Assembly (NCBI GenBank): GCA_015057615.1
Contig: SVEA01000016.1
Span: 1-51,762, forward strand
DNA: 51,762 nt
Direction: 5' to 3'
Origin: Lachnospiraceae bacterium
GTDB taxonomy: Bacteria; Bacillota; Clostridia; Lachnospirales; Lachnospiraceae
The notes beneath the pieces were generated by a model. It was not told where the DNA came from and ran no database searches. It saw only the letters and a program-made list of their open reading frames with translations. This document shows positions 2,894 to 31,977 of this stretch, in pieces. Position numbers and translations under genes: made by a program. Position 1 is the stretch's first letter, and each line of letters opens with the position of its first letter.

Positions 2894-5458
2894 TCAGTTA
2901 ATGAAAAGATCATTATCAAAATTCTTTCGAATAAATTTCCCATCCTCAAAATACTCTTCCGTATCGGACAGATAATACAAATCTCCAATATGCTTTTCCC
3001 ATTTAAAAGCTGGATCTCTGGTCTGAATTACAAAATATTGAAGCTTTACGGCCACCTCAGAGAGACGTACTCTTTTCTCGGCATAATCCATTTCCGTATT
3101 CTCCAATAGGTTAACATAATCCTCCCATACGATATCACCATCTAATACCTTGCCATCCTCCAGTTCAATTTTTCTACTTAAGAATACGCTGTATTTAATA
3201 TCACCCTGAATCAAATTCATCGTTTTTTCAACTTCAGGAAAGTTTAAAGTTTCAACCTGATCGACACAGAAATCCTGAAAGATATGCCCTCTGCTCTTTA
3301 GAAATGCAATCACTTTATCATAGTAAGTTTTAAAATCTTTTTTAATTAAAACTTCCTTCATATCATCCTGAGCTAAAGTTAAAATTTTATCCTTTCTGAT
3401 ATCATTTCTATAAATCAAACCTGCATTATCCATATCGAAAAAATATACAATGCCATACTTATTATGTCCTGCATAATGCCGGTTGATTCTCCCCAGAAAC
3501 TGTTCTTCTGAATCCAAAAGAGATATGTCTTTGTATCCAATATCTGCATCAATATCAATCCCGGCCTCGACCACCTGAGTTGCTACTAGGATTAGATTTT
3601 TTCTGCTGCAAAATTTGTGAATTATATTTTTACGTTCATAACTGGAAACATCTCCGGTCAACATTTGAACTTCTTTCCCACTTATGTCTGTATCTTTAAG
3701 AATTTCATAAGCTTTTTCTGCGCTGGATCGAAAAATGAATTCTATCAGAATATTTATATTATCTATTTCAGCAGTTTTTTGAATATGCTTAATCAGCTTC
3801 TCCATCTTATCTTCCTTTAATTCCATAAGAGAAAAATCCAATTTTACCCGATCCTTAAACACAGGGTTTAAGAAATATTTATTCCTATCCTTGATAAGTC
3901 TCGTAATATAAGCTTGTGTATCTGTTAGTTTTCCCAGATCTGGAAGAGTAGCAGACATTAATATCATTTTAATATTAAGAATTTTTGCATAATGTTGTAA
4001 AAATATAATTATATTCTTCCATATATCATTACGGTAACTATGAATCTCATCAAAAATAATAACACTGTTAGCTAATTGAATAAGAGGAAACAAGTCTTCC
4101 TTCCCACAGCCAAAAAAATAGCGGAATAGGCTGACATGAGTAGTAAGATTCATGGGATACAAAAGGAACTGCCAACTTAGTAAGGACCTGTCATAGTCAA
4201 TATTATCACTCATTTCTTCAGTTTCTTCCTTGGTTTCTATTTTATACTTCTTTATAGGTACCAAAGAATTGATTACAGAAATATTCTTCTTAGTTTCCTC
4301 TTCCCCAAAGATTTTAGCCAAGCTATTCATGTTTTGCTCAACTAAAGTATTATATGGATATACATAAATGATCTTATTTAACTCCTTATTTCCAGAGATT
4401 AATTGAAACGCCAAGTGAAAGCTTACCATACTTTTTCCCGAACCGGTCGGAGCCTCCAAAAAATAGATGTTACTATGTTGATTTTTTTCCAGCTCTTCTC
4501 CCGCCTCCAGAAACATTTCATTACGAAGAACATTAATATCCTCTGTTTTCTCAACCTTCTGTTTTGTATATCTGGACTTTCTATAGGTCTGAATCGATTT
4601 GTAAATTGGATTACTTTTATAAATGTCAAAGAGATGCCATACATCTTCTATTGTTCCGAAATCCATTATCTCTTTTCTGGTTTTAAATTCTGTTGTCGCA
4701 TAATAATCACAAGAGAAAAGCAAAGAAGACAAAAAACGCACATAGATATAGAAGTCAATGGATGCTTCCTTTTGCCTTTCTTTTAAATATTTTCTACTCC
4801 TATTTATTATGCTCTGTAAACAAGCCCTGGGATTACCCTGAAAAACTTCTCTTATATACACATCCTCATATATGATCTTTTGTTCAGTAGCTAATTGCTG
4901 ACCATCCCCATCGGGATTAAGCAATCGATCTTCAAAATCCTTCATACTGATCAGGTTGCCATGATGCCTCGATATAACATATGCATTCATCACCATGAGA
5001 GCAATGAATTGATTTCTTGCTGATAAATCGACATTTTTTTTGATTTCCGGATAATATTCATTCATATATAATATGGAAGATAGCATAGAATGCGTGCTAT
5101 TATTGCTATCATAAGATAAATATTTTCTATGATAATTATTTTTCATTTTATTCACTTGATAATTACAGTTTATCTTTCCGATATCATGAAGATAAATAGT
5201 ATGATATAGCATTTCGCGAAAAAGCTTTATATAATCAGGATTTCTTTTACTAAACAAGATTTTTTCCATATTTTCAAATACCTTTTCTAAATTTTTAACA
5301 TGGATCAATCTCTTAAAATATACTATACATAGATCAGCGTGTTCTTCCAGAGTTTCTATCCTGTCATCCTTATTGCTTAAATGTGCATAAATCTTATCTG
5401 ACTGATTAAGGATATCACCATACCTTATCTTTTTAATTTTTTTAAAATAATCCGACAT
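2894..5458 (-). CDS. cas3: CRISPR-associated helicase/nuclease Cas3 (HD + DExH)
   Basis: Single-chain Cas3 that is recruited by Cascade and unwinds and degrades the target. I start it at the ATG after GGAGGTGAAG (854 aa), four codons inside the longest frame. The N-terminal HD nuclease has H40 (EEHADL), the HD pair H91-D92 (YLHDIGK), H123 (THSMLSS) and RHH at 164-166. The SF2 helicase has Walker A APTGSGKS (about 336-343), the DExH box FDEIH (469-473), then the C-terminal helicase domain with ATQVVEAGIDID and the arginine-finger region EEQFLGRINRH. All motifs are intact, so interference should be functional. Confidence 0.97.
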   Translation of the reverse strand: MSDYFKKIKKIRYGDILNQSDKIYAHLSNKDDRIETLEEHADLCIVYFKRLIHVKNLEKVFENMEKILFSKRNPDYIKLFREMLYHTIYLHDIGKINCNYQVNKMKNNYHRKYLSYDSNNSTHSMLSSILYMNEYYPEIKKNVDLSARNQFIALMVMNAYVISRHHGNLISMKDFEDRLLNPDGDGQQLATEQKIIYEDVYIREVFQGNPRACLQSIINRSRKYLKERQKEASIDFYIYVRFLSSLLFSCDYYATTEFKTRKEIMDFGTIEDVWHLFDIYKSNPIYKSIQTYRKSRYTKQKVEKTEDINVLRNEMFLEAGEELEKNQHSNIYFLEAPTGSGKSMVSFHLAFQLISGNKELNKIIYVYPYNTLVEQNMNSLAKIFGEEETKKNISVINSLVPIKKYKIETKEETEEMSDNIDYDRSLLSWQFLLYPMNLTTHVSLFRYFFGCGKEDLFPLIQLANSVIIFDEIHSYRNDIWKNIIIFLQHYAKILNIKMILMSATLPDLGKLTDTQAYITRLIKDRNKYFLNPVFKDRVKLDFSLMELKEDKMEKLIKHIQKTAEIDNINILIEFIFRSSAEKAYEILKDTDISGKEVQMLTGDVSSYERKNIIHKFCSRKNLILVATQVVEAGIDIDADIGYKDISLLDSEEQFLGRINRHYAGHNKYGIVYFFDMDNAGLIYRNDIRKDKILTLAQDDMKEVLIKKDFKTYYDKVIAFLKSRGHIFQDFCVDQVETLNFPEVEKTMNLIQGDIKYSVFLSRKIELEDGKVLDGDIVWEDYVNLLENTEMDYAEKRVRLSEVAVKLQYFVIQTRDPAFKWEKHIGDLYYLSDTEEYFEDGKFIRKNFDNDLFIN

Positions 5459-5534
5459 CTTCACCTCCATAGATTAAGGGGATTAACATTTTATGCTGCA
5501 ATCCCCTTAGTTGTCTTAGTGATTATTTATTTTT

Positions 5535-6287
5535 TTAGAAAAAGCAAATATGTTCTTCCTCACATAATAGAACAGAACAAGGTACCTTTGAATCACATTC
5601 TTCCCTTACAGTTACCTGGCCATTCGTAAACTGAAACATCTCAATTATATATTGATTTGTTTCGGCTGTTAAGCCAAACGGAAGTCCTTCTTCATATTTA
5701 AACAGTGAGAAATCATCTTCATCCATGTGCAGCGTAAATGCTTCCTTTGGATATAGACTTCTAAGAATGACAGGAATATCTAAAGATGCTTTCTGACCTT
5801 CTATCACTTGCACCTCACTAATATTCGCATAATGATCATTCTTACCAAGATAAGGAATATATATGGCCCGAGCATTCATCAGATAATCACATATTATTTC
5901 TTCTATTTCCCCTTGAAGTTGAATATATATCATCCAGCTTGGATTTTCGAGCCACTGTTCCTTTACTATGAGATTTCCGTCTGTGTTCGCATAACCTACT
6001 GTATTTACGAAGGTCTGTATACTTTTTTTAAAATATCCCTGCTGTAATTCGTTACTTTTATTAGGCTTTATACCTATCTTCAACTTTTTCAGCTTATCAT
6101 AAAATTCAGGGTACTCCTCTTTGCCTCTGGATTGTTGATTGTATCCTCCATATCCCAAGACCGCTCCCAAAAGTCCCAATAAAGCAACCTTATGAATATG
6201 CCCATAGGTGAAGTAATAAAAAGCATTTACCTCCGGTATTTTAAAGAATGCATGCTCCCCGCTTAATTTGAATCGTAGAACTTTCAT
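5535..6287 (-). CDS. cas5b: Cascade subunit Cas5 (type I-B)
   Basis: RAMP protein that caps the 5' handle of the crRNA in Cascade. It is 250 aa, starting MKVLRFKLSGEHAFFKIPEVNAFYYFTYGHIHK with a typical Cas5 first strand, then the glycine-rich LLGLLGAVLGYGGYN. An upstream AGAGG is present. It lies between cas7 and cas3, as expected in the I-B order. No defect seen. Confidence 0.93.
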   Translation of the reverse strand: MKVLRFKLSGEHAFFKIPEVNAFYYFTYGHIHKVALLGLLGAVLGYGGYNQQSRGKEEYPEFYDKLKKLKIGIKPNKSNELQQGYFKKSIQTFVNTVGYANTDGNLIVKEQWLENPSWMIYIQLQGEIEEIICDYLMNARAIYIPYLGKNDHYANISEVQVIEGQKASLDIPVILRSLYPKEAFTLHMDEDDFSLFKYEEGLPFGLTAETNQYIIEMFQFTNGQVTVREECDSKVPCSVLLCEEEHICFF

Positions 6288-6362: not shown

Positions 6363-7334
6363 TCAAATCTGTTTCTGAGTAAAGATATTATATTCTTTCG
6401 CCTTTTTTATCCCATGGTTAACCTTGAGCGTATAAGGATTATAATAAATTTCAATAGTCTTAATTCTATCCTCTAACGTGTTCAGCAGATTATCCAGCTG
6501 AAGGTCTATCATATTGATAGATTCTTCTTTTGCAAAATAAATATATTGGGATAAATCAGGAAGATAAAGCTCCTGCTCTGTCTCGACAAATAGAGCAAAT
6601 TCATTTTCACAGCCTATTTTAGCATTGGTATGAAAAGATGTCGCAGCTACTAAAGCAGTGGATTTAAAGGTCATGTAATCTTCCTCTGTATAGCCTTCGG
6701 TTACATCAAGCTGAACAAATTCATCATATGCCTTTGGATTAATCACAAAAGGATAAAAATAATGAGCCTCATCACTAACAATTTTAACACCAAGCGACGC
6801 CTGTCTGGCTTCCTTCTTTTCACCATCTTTACCTCTCTTTTCCTGTTTTTCAGAATCATCTCTGAAAGGGGATAGTATTTGCTGTTCTTGCGCTCTGCTA
6901 TCTACATATTTATTCATGCCCTGCCCGATCTGCACTGCACCAGTGATGGATAGATTCGCACCTTTTGCAGCAAAAGTTGCACCAAAATTCTTTACATCGA
7001 TAGCCAAAAATAGATTTCTTAACAAATCCATTTTATCACTTGGGTTTTTCTCCTTCTCGGAATCCGCTTTCCCAAATAGAAAATCGTATCTTTCCGTAAG
7101 AGAACGAGGAAGCAAATCAATTTCATTTTTCTTATTCTTTTGTTTCTTCAATGATTTGAAATAAAGAACCTTTTCGCCCTGCTGGTTCCACATGAATTTC
7201 ATCGGATATTTTAGTGCCTTATCACTCCCGAAAATGCTACCGTCCGAAGTGGTTTTCGGATACCCGGTAAAATCCGCATTCCAATTACTCATCCTAGAAG
7301 CAATGCCTATTACTCCATAAACACGTTTATTCAT
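6363..7334 (-). CDS. cas7: Cascade backbone subunit Cas7 (Csh2-type, I-B)
   Basis: RNA-binding backbone protein that coats the spacer part of the crRNA; one finger of each copy flips out every sixth base. I start it at MNKRVYGVIGIASRMSNWNADFTGYP (ATG after GGGAGGAGAAAA, 323 aa), not at the longer in-frame ATG that would overlap cas8b. N-terminal RAMP strand, a lysine-rich linker (KSLKKQKNKKNEIDLLPRSLTERYDFLFGK), then the family segment NLFLAIDVKNFGATFAAKGANLSITGAVQIGQGMNK. The short gap to cas8b suggests translational coupling. Its expected 6-nt periodicity matters for the regulatory target described at 9914-9942. Confidence 0.94.
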   Translation of the reverse strand: MNKRVYGVIGIASRMSNWNADFTGYPKTTSDGSIFGSDKALKYPMKFMWNQQGEKVLYFKSLKKQKNKKNEIDLLPRSLTERYDFLFGKADSEKEKNPSDKMDLLRNLFLAIDVKNFGATFAAKGANLSITGAVQIGQGMNKYVDSRAQEQQILSPFRDDSEKQEKRGKDGEKKEARQASLGVKIVSDEAHYFYPFVINPKAYDEFVQLDVTEGYTEEDYMTFKSTALVAATSFHTNAKIGCENEFALFVETEQELYLPDLSQYIYFAKEESINMIDLQLDNLLNTLEDRIKTIEIYYNPYTLKVNHGIKKAKEYNIFTQKQI

Positions 7335-7350
7335 TTTTCTCCTCCCATTC

Positions 7351-9111
7351 TTAACCATTTGACTTTTCCTGATTTGTATTTGCAGTTGAATCCTCTTTTC
7401 CTTTGTATATCATATTCGGATATAGATATCCTCCTATCAAAGCATCCTCATTAATTCCTTTGATATCAATTTGACACAAAGACACTAAAGAATACATGGT
7501 ACGAAACCTCTGATATTTGGGCTCTGTTGTGATCGAATAGTTGTATTTATCAAACAATTTTCTTAGTTCTTTCTTCATAGCAGCGGCTGATGACGCATTC
7601 AATATCGGCTTTGAAAGAGATAAAGCTTTAGTGCCTGCTTTACTCAAGGTAAGAAAATAATAGGTGAGCTGTCCTACATAGAAAAAGAATTCAGCTTCAT
7701 TTTCTATTTTGCTTGGATTACTATTATTTATTTTTTCTTGTAACAAATCAATATTAACTAGAATATCATTCACGGTATTGCCCCCTTCAAATCTCTCTTT
7801 TAATGAAAGATATAAATTATACTGTTCTTTTGCTTTTTTATAAGAGCCGTTAAGAATTGAATTCTTGATTAAGTCAATGGATGAAGCTTTTAAAACCTGC
7901 CAGACACCGTCTTCCATTCCTAGGTAAAACCATTTGAATAATATGGATCTTGTTAGCAAAATATTTCTTTTTAAACAACTATCGCTAATGCGTATTTTAT
8001 CGCTTGGATTAAAATAATTCCCTGCCAGACATTTTCTAAATAAGTATTCATTTATAATCCCTCTCAATGTCTTAATCTGATTCACTGAACGATATTCCAG
8101 ACTAGACTTCTCAAAATGAAGATAATTTTTAATTAAAATCTTTGGGATTACTTCCTGGTAATTTAAAACTGTGTCATAATAAATGATTTCCGGTTCCATA
8201 CCTTTCTGGATTCTAATAAAGTATCCTGTGAAAGATCCACTCGGCGATTCGCCGTCTTCAAAGGGCTGTAATCCATCTTCATTTATATATAGATTACATT
8301 GATTTTTTTTCGATAAATTACTTAAATAGTCAAAGAACTTTTTTTGTAATAACACTTCATCTTGTGTAATTAGGACAGGAGAAACATTCTTTCTGGTTTT
8401 CTGCTCCAAATAAGGTTTCTTTGCGTTTAGCGCCATATTATTATTTGGAACCCCATAAATCTTGCCATCTATTTCCACATTATAATCTGCACTATTATAA
8501 AGATTTGTAAGGATATACTTTTCACTTTCCTTCTTATAATCCTCCTTACTATAATAGAAAAAAAGCTTAATATAACCTTTTTCATCACCAAAATCCATAC
8601 AAAGAAGGTGATCCTTGACCCAGTTTTCAATTTTGTTAATTCTGGCAATATCTGAGGGACCATATTTCTCTTCTAATGCTTTATAAGCTTTTTTTAGATT
8701 AGGCTTATTATACTTTTTATAAGGATTCCGAAACACATCATAATATTTCGTCAGAGTTTCTCCTGTTATTTTCCCGTTGGTTATGTTCTCTTTCTTAATA
8801 AAAAGGGTAAGATAATTATTACTGTGTATGTTCTTATCAGCAATTGCCTTATTTGATTCTAAGTATTTGCTATGATAATCCGCATATTGAATAAAATCGT
8901 AGTAATAATAACCTGTATCGGGCTCTATGTTCTTCTTGTCTGTTTTTATCGTAATCGTTTCTAGTGGCTCAAATCCACTGTCCGTTTCGCCTAGTATAAG
9001 ATAATCCCCATTTTCCGGAACATGGTTCTTCGTAAGAAAAAAGTCCGGATTATCCGGTTGCATTTTACTTTTATATTCCTTTTCAAATAATTGCAAAATC
9101 TCTTTTAACAT
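7351..9111 (-). CDS. cas8b: Cascade large subunit Cas8b (Csh1-type)
   Basis: Type I-B large subunit, which recognises the PAM. At 586 aa it is a normal length. Sequence is fast evolving, as is usual for Cas8; I assign it from its position between cas6 and cas7, its size, and Csh1-like segments such as NYFNPSDKIRISDSCLKRNILLTRSILFKWFYLGMEDG and the C-terminal FFFYVGQLTYYFLTLSKAGTK...ALIGGYLYPNMIYKGKED. A strong ribosome site (GGAGGTGAATT) precedes the ATG, 15 bp after the cas6 stop. The PAM cannot be read from the sequence; the regulatory target nearby suggests TCA. Confidence 0.9.
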   Translation of the reverse strand: MLKEILQLFEKEYKSKMQPDNPDFFLTKNHVPENGDYLILGETDSGFEPLETITIKTDKKNIEPDTGYYYYDFIQYADYHSKYLESNKAIADKNIHSNNYLTLFIKKENITNGKITGETLTKYYDVFRNPYKKYNKPNLKKAYKALEEKYGPSDIARINKIENWVKDHLLCMDFGDEKGYIKLFFYYSKEDYKKESEKYILTNLYNSADYNVEIDGKIYGVPNNNMALNAKKPYLEQKTRKNVSPVLITQDEVLLQKKFFDYLSNLSKKNQCNLYINEDGLQPFEDGESPSGSFTGYFIRIQKGMEPEIIYYDTVLNYQEVIPKILIKNYLHFEKSSLEYRSVNQIKTLRGIINEYLFRKCLAGNYFNPSDKIRISDSCLKRNILLTRSILFKWFYLGMEDGVWQVLKASSIDLIKNSILNGSYKKAKEQYNLYLSLKERFEGGNTVNDILVNIDLLQEKINNSNPSKIENEAEFFFYVGQLTYYFLTLSKAGTKALSLSKPILNASSAAAMKKELRKLFDKYNYSITTEPKYQRFRTMYSLVSLCQIDIKGINEDALIGGYLYPNMIYKGKEDSTANTNQEKSNG

Positions 9112-9126
9112 AATTCACCTCCCAAC

Positions 9127-9828
9127 TCATAGATATTTATACCCTAGGAACCCAGAACCTCTGCTTCCATTTTCTCCCACTCCTGTGCCAAGTGAAAAAT
9201 ACGCCAACTCTTGTGCCAGATTACTATAACTAAGATAAAGCGTGACTTTGTCTCCCAGAAGCGTAATGTTTTTAAATGATACTGGAACCGGTTTATGATT
9301 GTTAAATTCAAAATGTGTGTATAATTCGAAGCCTTCATCAATTTTAGTGTTGTTAAATTCGTTATAATTTTTTATCAGATTTATTTTTAATCGAGCCTCA
9401 TATTCTGCTAATGACAAATGTCCTCTCCAGTAGCCAAAATTATCATCTTTAATGATGATCGGTGTAATTGAGAATATCTTTTCAAGATAATGTTTTGGAA
9501 TAACTCTACTGCTAACTGTAAGAACTTTCAGCGTTTCTGTATAAGAGGTAAAAAGCTGCTTAATCAAATAGGAACTTAAATAATCGTCTATCGTTCGAAT
9601 TCGATAGGTATAGATATTACCCTCATGGTAAACGCCTTCTTTTTCCACGGGATGGAGTCCATCATAAACATAATTTTTATATTTGTTTTGCTTGTGAAAC
9701 TTTAAGTATTTTTCATCCTTTGCAAGAGCGTTGTCAATTAATCTAGTAATCTCTTCTCTTACATCAACCACTGGGATATCAATTAATAAATAAACTTTGA
9801 TGCTTAATTCTGTCACAGTAAATGCCAT
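9127..9828 (-). CDS. cas6: crRNA-processing endoribonuclease Cas6
   Basis: Cuts the repeat hairpin to release crRNAs with an 8-nt 5' handle. The start is set at MAFTVTELSIKVYLLIDIPVVD (233 aa) because AGAGGTG stands six bases before this ATG; the longer frame begins seven codons upstream without a good site. The C-terminus carries the glycine-rich Cas6 loop GTGVGENGSRGSGFLGYKYL. First gene of the cas operon. The same enzyme should process the pseudo-repeats at 10021-10099, whose hairpin stem is kept by paired changes. Confidence 0.95.
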   Translation of the reverse strand: MAFTVTELSIKVYLLIDIPVVDVREEITRLIDNALAKDEKYLKFHKQNKYKNYVYDGLHPVEKEGVYHEGNIYTYRIRTIDDYLSSYLIKQLFTSYTETLKVLTVSSRVIPKHYLEKIFSITPIIIKDDNFGYWRGHLSLAEYEARLKINLIKNYNEFNNTKIDEGFELYTHFEFNNHKPVPVSFKNITLLGDKVTLYLSYSNLAQELAYFSLGTGVGENGSRGSGFLGYKYL

Positions 9829-9877
9829 TGTATCACCTCTTTTCTCCATTATTGGTGTTTATTTATTTTCTTAACTT

Positions 9878-9907
9878 ATTTTAGCACTCAATGGCATAAT
9901 ATGTCAA
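9878..9907 (-). promoter_or_regulatory. cas operon promoter
   Basis: On the minus strand a perfect TTGACA (9907-9902) is followed after 18 bp by TAAAAT (9883-9878). Transcription should begin near 9871, about 40 bases before the cas6 ATG. It is the only strong promoter directly upstream of cas6 and lies just downstream of the pseudo-spacer match. Confidence 0.75.
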
Positions 9908-9913
9908 TAGCTA

Positions 9914-9942
9914 TTTTCTTATTTATTAAATATTATTATTGA
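9914..9942 (-). promoter_or_regulatory. Putative Cascade docking site (pseudo-spacer target) upstream of the cas promoter
   Basis: On the minus strand TCA (9942-9940) is followed by ATAATAATATTTAATAA, which matches the first 17 nt of the pseudo-spacer except at position 6. Beyond position 17 the match collapses (18, 19, 20, 22 and 24-26 differ). TCA is among the PAMs known for clostridial I-B systems. A partial match of this kind would let Cascade bind without full R-loop formation, and its far edge would lie beside the -35 box. The region is very AT-rich, so chance must be considered. Confidence 0.55.
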
Positions 9943-9956
9943 TATATAGTAATTTG

Positions 9957-10015
9957 CAATTGATTCAAGTATAATAAACATAGCTGAGACATTTGCATGG
10001 CACTTGAATCAATTG
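9957..10015. repeat. 14-bp perfect inverted repeat between mini-CRISPR and cas promoter
   Basis: CAATTGATTCAAGT (9957-9970) and ACTTGAATCAATTG (10002-10015) are exact inverted copies around a 31-bp centre. In leftward RNA it would form a long-stem hairpin just 3' of the pseudo-repeats and could define or protect the 3' end of that RNA. No T-run follows, so it is not a standard terminator; a protein operator is the alternative. Confidence 0.6.
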
Positions 10016-10020
10016 TTTAG

Positions 10021-10099
10021 CATTCTAATTACATCTTATGTTATAGTTCAAAAGGTTTATATTATTAAATATAATTATTTTTAAATACATCCTATGTTC
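10021..10099 (-). ncRNA. Degenerate mini-CRISPR encoding a crRNA-like regulatory RNA (CreR-type)
   Basis: Reading leftward there is a pseudo-repeat whose 3' part matches 16 of 20 positions of the array repeat (10099-10079), a 26-nt pseudo-spacer (10078-10053, starting ATAATTATATTTAATAA), and a second pseudo-repeat (10052 to about 10021) with 4 mismatches in its first 23 positions. The Cas6 stem is preserved by paired substitutions: ACAG/CTGT in the array becomes ACAT/ATGT in both pseudo-repeats. The 5' half of the first pseudo-repeat has decayed, which should not matter because only its 3' handle enters the mature RNA. Predicted product: handle, 26-nt guide, 3' hairpin. Known creA and creR genes have this layout. 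The guide points at the cas6 promoter, which favours autorepression over a toxin antidote role; no toxin ORF is evident. Confidence 0.7.
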
Positions 10100-10185
10100 T
10101 GCCAATTAACTTAAATTGGACATAAATAAATTTCTTTAATACCAATTACAAAATCCAAGTTAATAAGCATTGTTCAATCTACTCT

Positions 10186-10214
10186 ATTAGATAATATTTT
10201 TGCTCACTTGTCAA
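10186..10214 (-). promoter_or_regulatory. Promoter of the mini-CRISPR RNA
   Basis: On the minus strand TTGACA (10214-10209) and TCTAAT (10191-10186) are separated by the ideal 17 bp. Transcription would start near 10179 and enter the pseudo-repeat about 80 bases later. The remainder of the gene-free stretch to 10434 shows no ORF or further structure I can name. Confidence 0.7.
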
Positions 10215-10434
10215 TCATAACCTAATTCTGGTCCATTTAATTAATCCCAATCCAATATATATTTCTCCAATAATTCCTGTGCAAATTTTCTGATATTCCA
10301 TCAGGCATCCATCACATTATTTTATATACTTAAACCGGATACTGCAAGGGCAAATACATTTTCTTGCTATGCAAATAAATCCCTCATTTGCTACTGCAAA
10401 ATATTGCTGATTTTTATTTACCCAGCGCCTCTTT

Positions 10435-12378
10435 CTAACGTCCAAAAGCCGACTGCATATTTTTCCCTACTGCCTTTAGAAGTTCTTTCGGGAGCTTTTC
10501 CACTTGCTCGCCGATGATTACGCCGTGCGGCTGCTTGTAGCCTTCATTCCATACGAAATGAAAGATTTTTTCATTTGTCTCGTTATTTTTTCCGATTTGA
10601 AAGGCATAGATTTCGACATTTTTTGATAACAACTCTTGTACTGCTTCTTTTGCTGCTCCTGGGAAGCTTGATGCTCCGTCGGTTATTTCAAAAATGATTT
10701 TTATCTGCTTTCCTTTCTTAAGTTCGCTTTCCTGCAGGGGCGTAATGCTATCTGATATTTTTCTCAGACAGCCTGCATCATCGGTTGCTCCATCTGCAGC
10801 ATTCAGTTTTACAATGGAACGAATGATATCACTATTTTCTTTTTCCTTCCCATTCTTATCATTAAATTCTTTCACATTATAATATTTGCTGCCAAAAAAC
10901 CAGGTTTCACTTAATACCTCTATTTTTTGATTCAATTGCTCCGCATTACTTTTTAAGTATCCATTAAAATCATCAATGGACAGTAAAGTCACCGCCAGCG
11001 CCTTTCTTGCCGCCTCGATTTTTGACGCATTCATGGAACCTGAATTATCTATGACAAAGGAAATCTCAATTCTTTCCGGTAATTTATCTGCTTGCGCCTC
11101 GAGTAAGTATCGGTCAAAGATCGGAAGGTTTTTGTAATTTCCTTTTTTCTCCGCCTCTACAAAATCCGGATAAGCGTGTATAAAGCTGTCAATATTCAGC
11201 TTTCCCTTTACCTGTCCATTCTTTTTTACACTAATTTCTTTCTTTGCATCCCCGATCAGCTTTCTCCAAAACTGACGCATTTGTTCTCTTTCCGGCTTCA
11301 TCTTGTTGGAATAAAACTGAAATAGCTGCTGATCGGATTGGCTGATCCCATATGTCTCTAAATCCAATTTCCCTTGTATCGCATTCTGCACGCTCTCACT
11401 GATCTGGTCCTGCTGCTCCAGCATCTCATCTAAAATTTTTTCTACTTCTTCCTGCGTTGATTCCAGCGAATCTGGCATATCCTCTTCTTTTGACGGTTCA
11501 AACGAACCTTTCCCTCCCTTGCCTTGCTCTTCTTTTTGCCCGGTTGACTGATAGAACATCATTTCATCGATCTCCTGCTTCCATAGCTGCTCAAAGGTCG
11601 GAAAAACAAAAGAACGAAGGAACGGATCTCTTTCGATAATTCCGTGACCATTATTGATTTGCCTGATGAATTGATCATGAATAAAACCAAAAAACGGCTG
11701 ATTGAAAATTTTCTTATCAAAGGGGTTTTCCGCACATTCATCAAACATTGGCTCTCTCTTATACAGTTCAATCCTTAAGAAACTATTTGCAAAAGCCCTG
11801 TGTCTTGGCATTTCAGAAATTGACTCCATGGTCTTCCCCGTCTGTTTCATATAGGAAACAATTTTATCGAAATTCTCTTTCTCCCGGTAGATCGGACACA
11901 TCTGCAGGACTCTTAGAAAGGATATCTGCTTATCCATCTGATATAAAAAATCAAGAATCTCTCTTCTTACATAATTTGATATAATTTTAGGTTCATATGC
12001 CGGGTCATTTTCCAATCCCTCTTTTCTTATCCTTGCCAGAAGATAGCTTGTCATGTGATCGAATTCTTTCTGCCAGTCTTTTTTTCTGTCTCGGTATTTT
12101 TTTGTCTGCCTTTTCCAATCCGAATATAAGGCAAGCTCATAGTAAATATGCCATAAGATCTGATTCTCATCTAATTTTCTATCGAGAAAGCTCTCCAACG
12201 GCAGATACAGGATACCTTTGGAAGGATCTAGCAGAAATCTTTGCAGTTTGGAAGCAGGAAGATACCGTAAACTAGAATCTCCCGTAAATGTGGCTAAGGA
12301 GCGCTGCTCTTTCTGCAGAAATTCTTCGCAGTGCTTTTTCGCTTCCTCAATCAGTGCCTGTTCATCATATTCAAACAT
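10435..12378 (-). CDS. VWA-domain protein of a MoxR-VWA operon
   Basis: Soluble 647-aa protein. The C-terminal third is a von Willebrand A domain with a full MIDAS: DNSGS (about 444-448), then the Thr/Asp loop DGATDDAG and FEITDGASS. The N-terminal two thirds are helical and charged. They include LWHIYYELALYSDW, which resembles a decayed HExxH-type metallopeptidase helix found in other VWA-like proteins of this kind (inference), and a Glu/Gln-rich linker (EEVEKILDEMLEQQDQISESVQ). I start at the second ATG because AGGAGGG is eight bases before it. Last gene of a three-gene operon, six bases or so after the propeller gene. The family (CoxE-like VWA partners of MoxR AAA+ ATPases) commonly assists assembly or remodelling; the substrate is unknown. 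Confidence 0.85.
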   Translation of the reverse strand: MFEYDEQALIEEAKKHCEEFLQKEQRSLATFTGDSSLRYLPASKLQRFLLDPSKGILYLPLESFLDRKLDENQILWHIYYELALYSDWKRQTKKYRDRKKDWQKEFDHMTSYLLARIRKEGLENDPAYEPKIISNYVRREILDFLYQMDKQISFLRVLQMCPIYREKENFDKIVSYMKQTGKTMESISEMPRHRAFANSFLRIELYKREPMFDECAENPFDKKIFNQPFFGFIHDQFIRQINNGHGIIERDPFLRSFVFPTFEQLWKQEIDEMMFYQSTGQKEEQGKGGKGSFEPSKEEDMPDSLESTQEEVEKILDEMLEQQDQISESVQNAIQGKLDLETYGISQSDQQLFQFYSNKMKPEREQMRQFWRKLIGDAKKEISVKKNGQVKGKLNIDSFIHAYPDFVEAEKKGNYKNLPIFDRYLLEAQADKLPERIEISFVIDNSGSMNASKIEAARKALAVTLLSIDDFNGYLKSNAEQLNQKIEVLSETWFFGSKYYNVKEFNDKNGKEKENSDIIRSIVKLNAADGATDDAGCLRKISDSITPLQESELKKGKQIKIIFEITDGASSFPGAAKEAVQELLSKNVEIYAFQIGKNNETNEKIFHFVWNEGYKQPHGVIIGEQVEKLPKELLKAVGKNMQSAFGR

Positions 12379-29154: not shown

Positions 29155-29280
29155 TGTTTTATATACCATTAATTCAACTAGAGCGTTTCTTAATTACCTA
29201 CTCTTATCTCTTATCATACAGGGAAAATGTCTCGCAATTATCTCAAATTTAAAATCAATTATCACAATTTCGAGACATTT
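29155..29280 (-). promoter_or_regulatory. Duplicated control region, copy A (upstream of ABC ATPase)
   Basis: It shares an almost identical block of more than 100 bp with the region upstream of permease 1. Inside are ATGTCTC (29227-29233) and GAGACAT (29272-29278), 38 bp apart, and on the minus strand a -10-like TATGAT (29218-29213) without a good -35. That arrangement fits promoters activated by a bound OmpR-type regulator. Confidence 0.7.
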
Positions 29281-31849: not shown

Positions 31850-31977
31850 TCCTGTTTTATACACCATTAATTTAACTAAAGAGCTTCGCAATTACCTGCT
31901 CTTACTCTTATCATACAGGGAAAATGTCTCGCAATTATCTCAAAATTAAAATCAATTGTCACAGTTTTGAGACATTG
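31850..31977 (-). promoter_or_regulatory. Duplicated control region, copy B (upstream of permease 1)
   Basis: Second copy of the block at 29155-29280, with ATGTCTC (31924-31930) and GAGACAT (31969-31975) at the same 38-bp spacing and the same TATGAT (31915-31910). The remainder of the 320-bp gap, 31978-32161, shows no ORF or structure I can name. The match includes the ribosome site GGAGG and a block of 30 or more bases without change. Confidence 0.72.

Follow-up and report, generated by a model that had tools for sequence, protein, structure and literature searches.

A probable CreR-type guide RNA gene aimed at the cas6 promoter of a type I-B CRISPR-Cas locus in a Lachnospiraceae bacterium

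Organization of the locus

The window, i.e. the whole 51,762-nt stretch of DNA that was analysed, is contig C148 of genome G000 (4.07 Mb). A complete type I-B operon was located on its minus strand, in the order cas6, cas8b, cas7b, cas5b, cas3, cas4, cas1 and cas2, followed by a CRISPR array, and each of the eight cas genes is an open reading frame with a family match (Table 1). The array runs off the end of the contig. Seven further copies of the repeat, one of which has one mismatch, open contig C140 of the same genome (positions 21-438), and the array seems to have been split by the assembly between the two contigs. Regarding cas6, translation perhaps starts at codon 8 (9828) instead of 9849 (region 9849-9826), because the closest relatives align from residues 10-14 and a ribosome-binding-like AGAGGTG stands ahead of that codon. 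Elsewhere in the window, the stretches 29155-29279 and 31853-31976, which are 85-94% identical and lie just upstream of two minus-strand reading frames, appear to be a duplicated gene-start region.

Table 1. Positions of the features of the cas locus, in window coordinates
Feature	Position	Strand	Basis or remark
CRISPR array	1-609	minus	9 complete 30-nt repeats; cut by contig end
cas2	784-1113	minus	family match
cas1	1227-2225	minus	family match
cas4	2356-2847	minus	family match
cas3	2894-5470	minus	family match
cas5b	5535-6287	minus	family match
cas7b	6363-7358	minus	family match
cas8b	7351-9111	minus	family match
cas6	9127-9849	minus	NCBIfam cas6 match below cutoff
cas6 operon promoter, TTGACA-18-TAAAAT	9907-9878	minus	promoter scan, 11/12
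Target (protospacer) ATAATAATATTTAATAA	9939-9923	minus	16/17 to psi-spacer, lone mismatch at position 6
PAM TCA	9942-9940	minus	guide-target comparison, assembly-wide search, survey of relatives
Perfect 14-bp inverted repeat, 31-nt loop	9957-10015		between psi-R2 and target
Pseudo-repeat 2 (psi-R2)	10052-10023	minus	23/30 identity with array repeat; stem ACAT/ATGT intact
Pseudo-spacer (psi-spacer; guide), 26 nt	10078-10053	minus	begins ATAATTATATTTAATAA
Pseudo-repeat 1 (psi-R1)	10108-10079	minus	8-nt 5' handle ATTTAAAA; stem ACAT/ATGT intact
Putative mini-CRISPR (creR) promoter, TTGACA-17-TCTAAT	10214-10186	minus	TTGACA 10214-10209, TCTAAT 10191-10186; sequence and weighted scan

Beside the cas operon, and on the same strand as cas6, lies a mini-CRISPR (10108-10023) with the layout of an ectopic crRNA-like gene, in which two degenerate repeats enclose a short spacer. 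A preliminary description of this DNA had pointed to two pseudo-repeats around a 26-nt pseudo-spacer, about 10 kb away from the real array, and both points hold, the array being situated on the same strand about 9.4 kb off. Outside the array, psi-R2 is the best match to the array repeat in the window, the runner-up reaching 20/30, and its score was attained by 0/2000 shuffles of the intergenic region. The pseudo-repeat pair scores 52, against a maximum of 34 across 1160 shuffled loci. The likeness of psi-R1 to the array repeat is restricted to its 3' two thirds; the handle is kept in psi-R1 and absent from psi-R2. The letters of the stem are ACAG/CTGT in the array repeat and ACAT/ATGT in the pseudo-repeats, so that the same stem is preserved. 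The array spacers are 34-36 nt long, as opposed to 26 nt for the psi-spacer.

The guide is directed at the promoter of cas6. No target had been given in the preliminary description, and the site reported here is new relative to it. The match between guide and target is broken past the first 17 nt. When guide positions 6 and 12 are left out, positions 1-17 match at 15/15 beside a TCA at the cas6 promoter, a result reached in 0/20000 shuffled regions, the best of which gave 14. The corresponding pattern, TCAATAATNATATTNAATAA, occurs a single time in the 4.07-Mb assembly, at the cas6 promoter, and the reversed control does not occur at all. Between the start of the target and the -35 box downstream of it the distance is 32 nt. 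The targeted promoter leads into cas6, the distance from its -10 box to the start of cas6 amounting to 28-49 nt. The array spacers showed no match to phage records, and the PAM is therefore uncheckable from spacers; its assignment as TCA is based on 29 of 29 PAM-free targets in relatives (see below) together with the confirmation of TCA as PAM with the type I-B system of C. autoethanogenum, as given in the available part of PMC10328091.

The promoter that had been proposed about 80 bp upstream of the mini-CRISPR, TTGACA-17-TCTAAT, is present, its -10 box ending 77 nt before psi-R1. It was the top site upstream of psi-R1 in the weighted promoter scan and was missing from a stricter scan because TCTAAT is without the usual A at position 2. 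Across 34 loci, the best promoters upstream of psi-R1 were above the shuffled 90th percentile in only 41%. With its imperfect -10 box and weak support in relatives, the putative creR promoter is only moderately supported. The longest inverted repeat in 20 shuffles measured 7 bp, compared with the 14 bp of the one found between psi-R2 and the target, and perfect arms of 14-17 bp occupy the same gap in L113, L041 and L140 too. A scan for terminator-like sites between creR and cas6 found none, while an Rfam search of 9700-10500 returned three matches, each below the gathering score and all on the inverted repeat.

Recurrence in the cas6 loci of relatives

The region was compared across related genomes, as the preliminary description had proposed. 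Cas6 searches covered 34 genomes of the genus, 397 of the family, 392 of the order, 391 of the class, and 206 and 71 of two further families, some genomes recurring. Twenty further stretches were added, as were 80 loci from a protein scan of named genomes, the first round of which yielded 0 relatives and the second, with alignment, kept 80/82. From 195 located loci, 51 near-duplicates and 6 with less than 150 nt upstream were removed, leaving 138 non-redundant loci in which cas6 was relocated by tblastn. An earlier set of 116 loci (130 minus 14), where a few minus-strand loci at contig ends are possibly misplaced, was used for pair scores, the first target search and the guide swaps. Repeats were scored with a template that was a consensus of our own, based in part on observed repeats, which favours the ATTTAAAT kind and would miss other repeat kinds. 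An element was called where a repeat-like handle was followed by a guide with at least 12/13 matches (positions 1-5, 7-11 and 13-15) to a TCA site before cas6.

It can be observed that the layout recurs. Handle, guide and TCA target were detected in 35/138 loci, with differing psi-spacers, compared with 2/1380 shuffled loci; this search found no element in the other 103. When the PAM was left free and a stricter handle imposed, 29/138 loci were recovered, in all 29 of which the best target carried TCA, while shuffles gave a match in 2/414. In the earlier set, a locus's own guide and target agreed at 9 or more of 10 seed positions, beside TCA, in 20/31 loci, whereas swapped pairs did so in 12/930, indicating that guide and target change together. 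As the sequence is AT-rich, one match that lacks a PAM carries little weight: swapped pairs reached 9/10 without a PAM in 155/930.

The 31 loci of the swap test had a pair score of at least 36, with regular array pairs removed by eye, as were array ends such as L068; L030 and L137, both without a target, were retained. L092 and L074 (score 34) contributed to the PAM and position tallies of that set alone. L138 was scored as a miss since the search extended over 300 nt and its target is farther away, and L088, L098 and L140 were missed through wrong boundaries and found by the later searches. In L098 the handle is weak and the match nearly full-length, and this locus may be a plain duplication.

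Within the genus, a DNA search gave matches in 4/33 other genomes; one of them (G024) has the mini-CRISPR, and in the three others, where the matches are short, a repeat scan found no repeats. The closest Cas6 relative found, Anaerocolumna aminovalerica (Lachnospiraceae; L063), has a psi-repeat pair. It shows no TCA target, with a 12/13 match beside TCT elsewhere on the other strand. The upstream region of L008, from the same-family genome G057, duplicates that record, which makes Lachnospiraceae very likely the family of the window as well. L070 likewise has no TCA target, its only 13/13 match standing beside TCG about 2.3 kb upstream of cas6, and none was found in L099 or L015. Among 107 higher-scoring Cas6 loci, 15 of which are taken stretches placed there without a score, 73 had no detected element.

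Two variants were encountered. The guide of L120 has a 13/13 match beside TCA in the promoter region of its own mini-CRISPR, some 240 nt ahead of cas6, an arrangement seen in 1/138 loci and 0/1380 shuffles, which suggests autoregulation of a joint creR-cas transcript. In L140 (Clostridium tyrobutyricum ATCC 25755), a small winged-helix gene (HTH_11/Rrf2-like; 2615-2875) is located between the targeted site and cas6, as is also the case in L041 and L153. In these three loci the guide would control a regulator-plus-cas operon.

Pairing pattern, pseudo-repeat stem and distance to the promoter

Type I effectors skip every sixth base, and position 6 is not read. Among the 35 loci, matches were found in 33-35 at positions 1-5, 7-11 and 13-15, which were the positions used to choose the targets, making this high rate partly a product of construction. 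Positions 6, 12 and 16 onward were not used for selection. Here, positions 6, 12 and 18 match in 15, 17 and 17 of the 35 loci, and positions 16 and 17 in 27 and 29. From position 19 the match falls to 21-22 and then to 9-14 of 35, near background. In the first set of 29 loci, positions 6 and 12 together gave 25/58 matches versus 47/58 for positions 16 and 17 (p about 5e-5). At least one mismatch at position 6, 12 or 18 is present in 31/35 loci, a pattern with the 6-base period of type I effectors. With every sixth position passed over, pairing extends for at least 13 nt in 31/35 loci and at least 17 nt in 21/35. Mismatches at position 6 are mostly guide T against target A (13 among the 35 pairs, versus 0 in reverse), and target positions 1-6 have an AT-rich consensus common to the loci. 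This bias may arise from common ancestry or from a preference for the flipped base. Selection behind it is not claimed, since the shared consensus and common ancestry may explain it.

The four-pair stem ACAT/ATGT just before the handle was examined in 40 of 44 psi-repeats, where 98.8% of 160 cells are paired, and changes on both sides, i.e. compensatory changes, occur in 3 of the 4 pairs. Shuffling reached four of five measures in 0/500 trials and the fifth in 1/500, a test that related sequences can exceed. The four left out are the register-shifted psi-R1 of L066, L089, L138 and L142; the omission favours the stem, as three of them break it when read ungapped. Over all 44 psi-repeats read ungapped, 167/176 stem cells are paired.

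The position of the target relative to the promoter was examined as well. When the best promoter within 70 nt of each target is taken, the target begins between -34 and -19 relative to the -35 box in 24/35 loci, the target in the window being at -32. These loci form one group at -34 to -29 and another, about ten bases away, at -25 to -19, and one further locus lies at -49. For the 25 upstream targets, phasing at 10.5 bp gave a Rayleigh p of about 0.002, post hoc. In the other 10/35 loci the target begins farther downstream, 22-50 nt after the beginning of the -35 box; a complex bound there could block initiation or elongation.

Interpretation and comparison with known systems

Taken together, the element very probably represents a CreR gene, whose crRNA-like guide would repress its own cas operon, a reading to which we assign a probability of about 0.93. 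The preliminary description had supposed that a crRNA-like RNA uses Cascade to regulate the cas genes; the PAM with its 16/17 match, the recurrence in 35/138 loci and the compensatory stem all argue for this. The guide is partly complementary to the promoter of its cognate cas operon with a PAM present, and at the targeted locus the promoter runs into cas6 with no toxin gene coupled to it.

From these features we infer the following course. The compensatory stem and the 6-nt spacing of mismatches would fit processing by Cas6 and loading into Cascade, and the place of the target relative to the -35 box would fit repression of the cas genes. The mini-CRISPR would be transcribed toward cas6, and both degenerate repeats would be cut by Cas6 at the small stem, releasing a crRNA-like RNA with the 8-nt handle AUUUAAAA, the 26-nt guide and about 22 nt of psi-repeat 2. 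Cascade (Cas5-Cas7-Cas8b-Cas6) would load this RNA, recognize TCA and pair the guide with the sequence immediately ahead of the -35 box in the cas6 operon promoter; in the simplest mechanism this would keep RNA polymerase off, so that the operon would repress itself. Since the pairing ends after about 17 nt, Cas3 would presumably be unable to destroy the chromosome. Repression would be lifted when crRNAs occupy the Cas proteins or an anti-CRISPR disables Cascade; self-limitation of the operon until such competition is proposed on the basis of the CreR literature (available parts of PMC12737573 and PMC13131331).

Three other explanations were weighed. The element might be a decayed remnant of a lost array whose match to the promoter is due to chance in AT-rich DNA, and indeed its repeats are degenerate, the region is AT-rich and 103/138 loci are without such an element. 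The preliminary description had excluded a remnant on account of the orientation. That argument is itself weak, but the pairing of guide and target does speak against a remnant, as guide and target change together across loci, with the PAM and the 6-nt period retained. Moreover, only 4/94 array-type spacers have such a target, and by position all four are mini-CRISPRs themselves. An ordinary array would have near-identical repeats and standard spacers, whereas here the repeats have diverged and the spacer is short, and we consider a remnant scarcely credible. Greater, if still low, probability attaches to a functional guide that acts mainly on read-through from its own promoter, or on that promoter itself, instead of on a separate cas6 promoter. 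The transcript of creR may enter cas6, as no terminator-like site was seen between them, and the guide of L120 does target its own promoter region. Yet the target in the window precedes a cas promoter that is both strong and separate, and its offset from that promoter recurs in other loci; this explanation is judged improbable.

It is very improbable that the element is a CreA antitoxin, the guide of which would repress a small gene next to the cas genes that encodes a toxin (CreT RNA or CreP protein). CreA has been published with this gene layout and this seed rule (in the portion available of PMC8501985). Its guide acts on the promoter of a toxin gene, but here promoter 9907-9878 leads to cas6, and the interval from the -10 box to the start codon is too short to hold a toxin gene; across the relatives, 28/35 loci have their target within 210 nt of cas6. 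The element is accordingly classed as CreR and not as CreA/CreTA, because the targeted promoter leads straight into cas6.

Assuming the CreR reading, a wider picture can be offered tentatively, and we regard it as rather doubtful in its entirety: one old CreR family of Clostridia I-B systems, in which Cascade would dock at set, roughly helically phased distances ahead of the cas -35 box, with pairing that is often at least 17 nt, exceeding the published seed of CreA without extending to full length, whereby the promoter would be blocked and Cas3 not engaged, and a few loci would form a two-layer circuit via the small winged-helix regulator.

Judged from sequence alone, it is very probable that a bacterial type I-B system uses an RNA guide to set its own expression. 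The 35 natural guide-target pairs are comparable to a mutational scan of what Cascade needs for binding a promoter without destruction, and the needs read from them are the PAM, the readable positions as far as about 17 and how far from the -35 box Cascade docks. A member is predicted in C. tyrobutyricum ATCC 25755, where removal of the guide might raise Cas levels. This species is named, in the accessible part of PMC10328091, among those whose own CRISPR PAMs served genome editing.

CreR is reportedly the cas-regulating RNA of Liu et al. 2023. According to the available parts of PMC12737573 and PMC13131331, CreR is a crRNA-like RNA with partial complementarity to a cas promoter, generally with no toxin gene, and type I-B systems are included. 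The element resembles it in being a crRNA-like RNA of a cas locus, in its partial complementarity to the cas promoter, in having no toxin at the targeted promoter and in its type I-B setting. The comparison, by these review descriptions, concerns an element whose pairing is at least 13 nt in 31/35 loci and at least 17 nt in 21/35. No CreR of clostridia or Lachnospiraceae appeared among the matches listed in the open-access literature, and Liu et al. 2023 may list some loci.

Racr, the RNA anti-CRISPR of phages, likewise is a repeat-like RNA outside an array; it consists of solitary repeats in viral genomes, whereas the present element combines two repeats with a guide and lies within a cas locus (as far as described in the part of PMC10651486 available). 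With the CreA of CreTA from Haloarcula and Halobacterium, as presented in the accessible parts of PMC8501985 and PMC9458426, the element shares two degenerate repeats, a handle only in psi-R1, a seed of positions 1-5 and 7-11, unread positions 6 and 12, and a PAM beside the target. For CreA, mutations at position 6 or 12 were harmless and those at any of the remaining ten among positions 1-12 mattered (PMC8501985), and psi-R1 keeps the handle while psi-R2 loses it (PMC9458426), both as stated in those parts. The two differ in that CreA targets a toxin promoter with the PAM TTC, and the element described here a cas promoter with the PAM TCA (same parts of PMC8501985 and PMC9458426). CreR is an already known kind of regulator, and the bacterium is a new one for it; the extension of pairing beyond the published CreA seed and the clustering of docking positions are possibly new.
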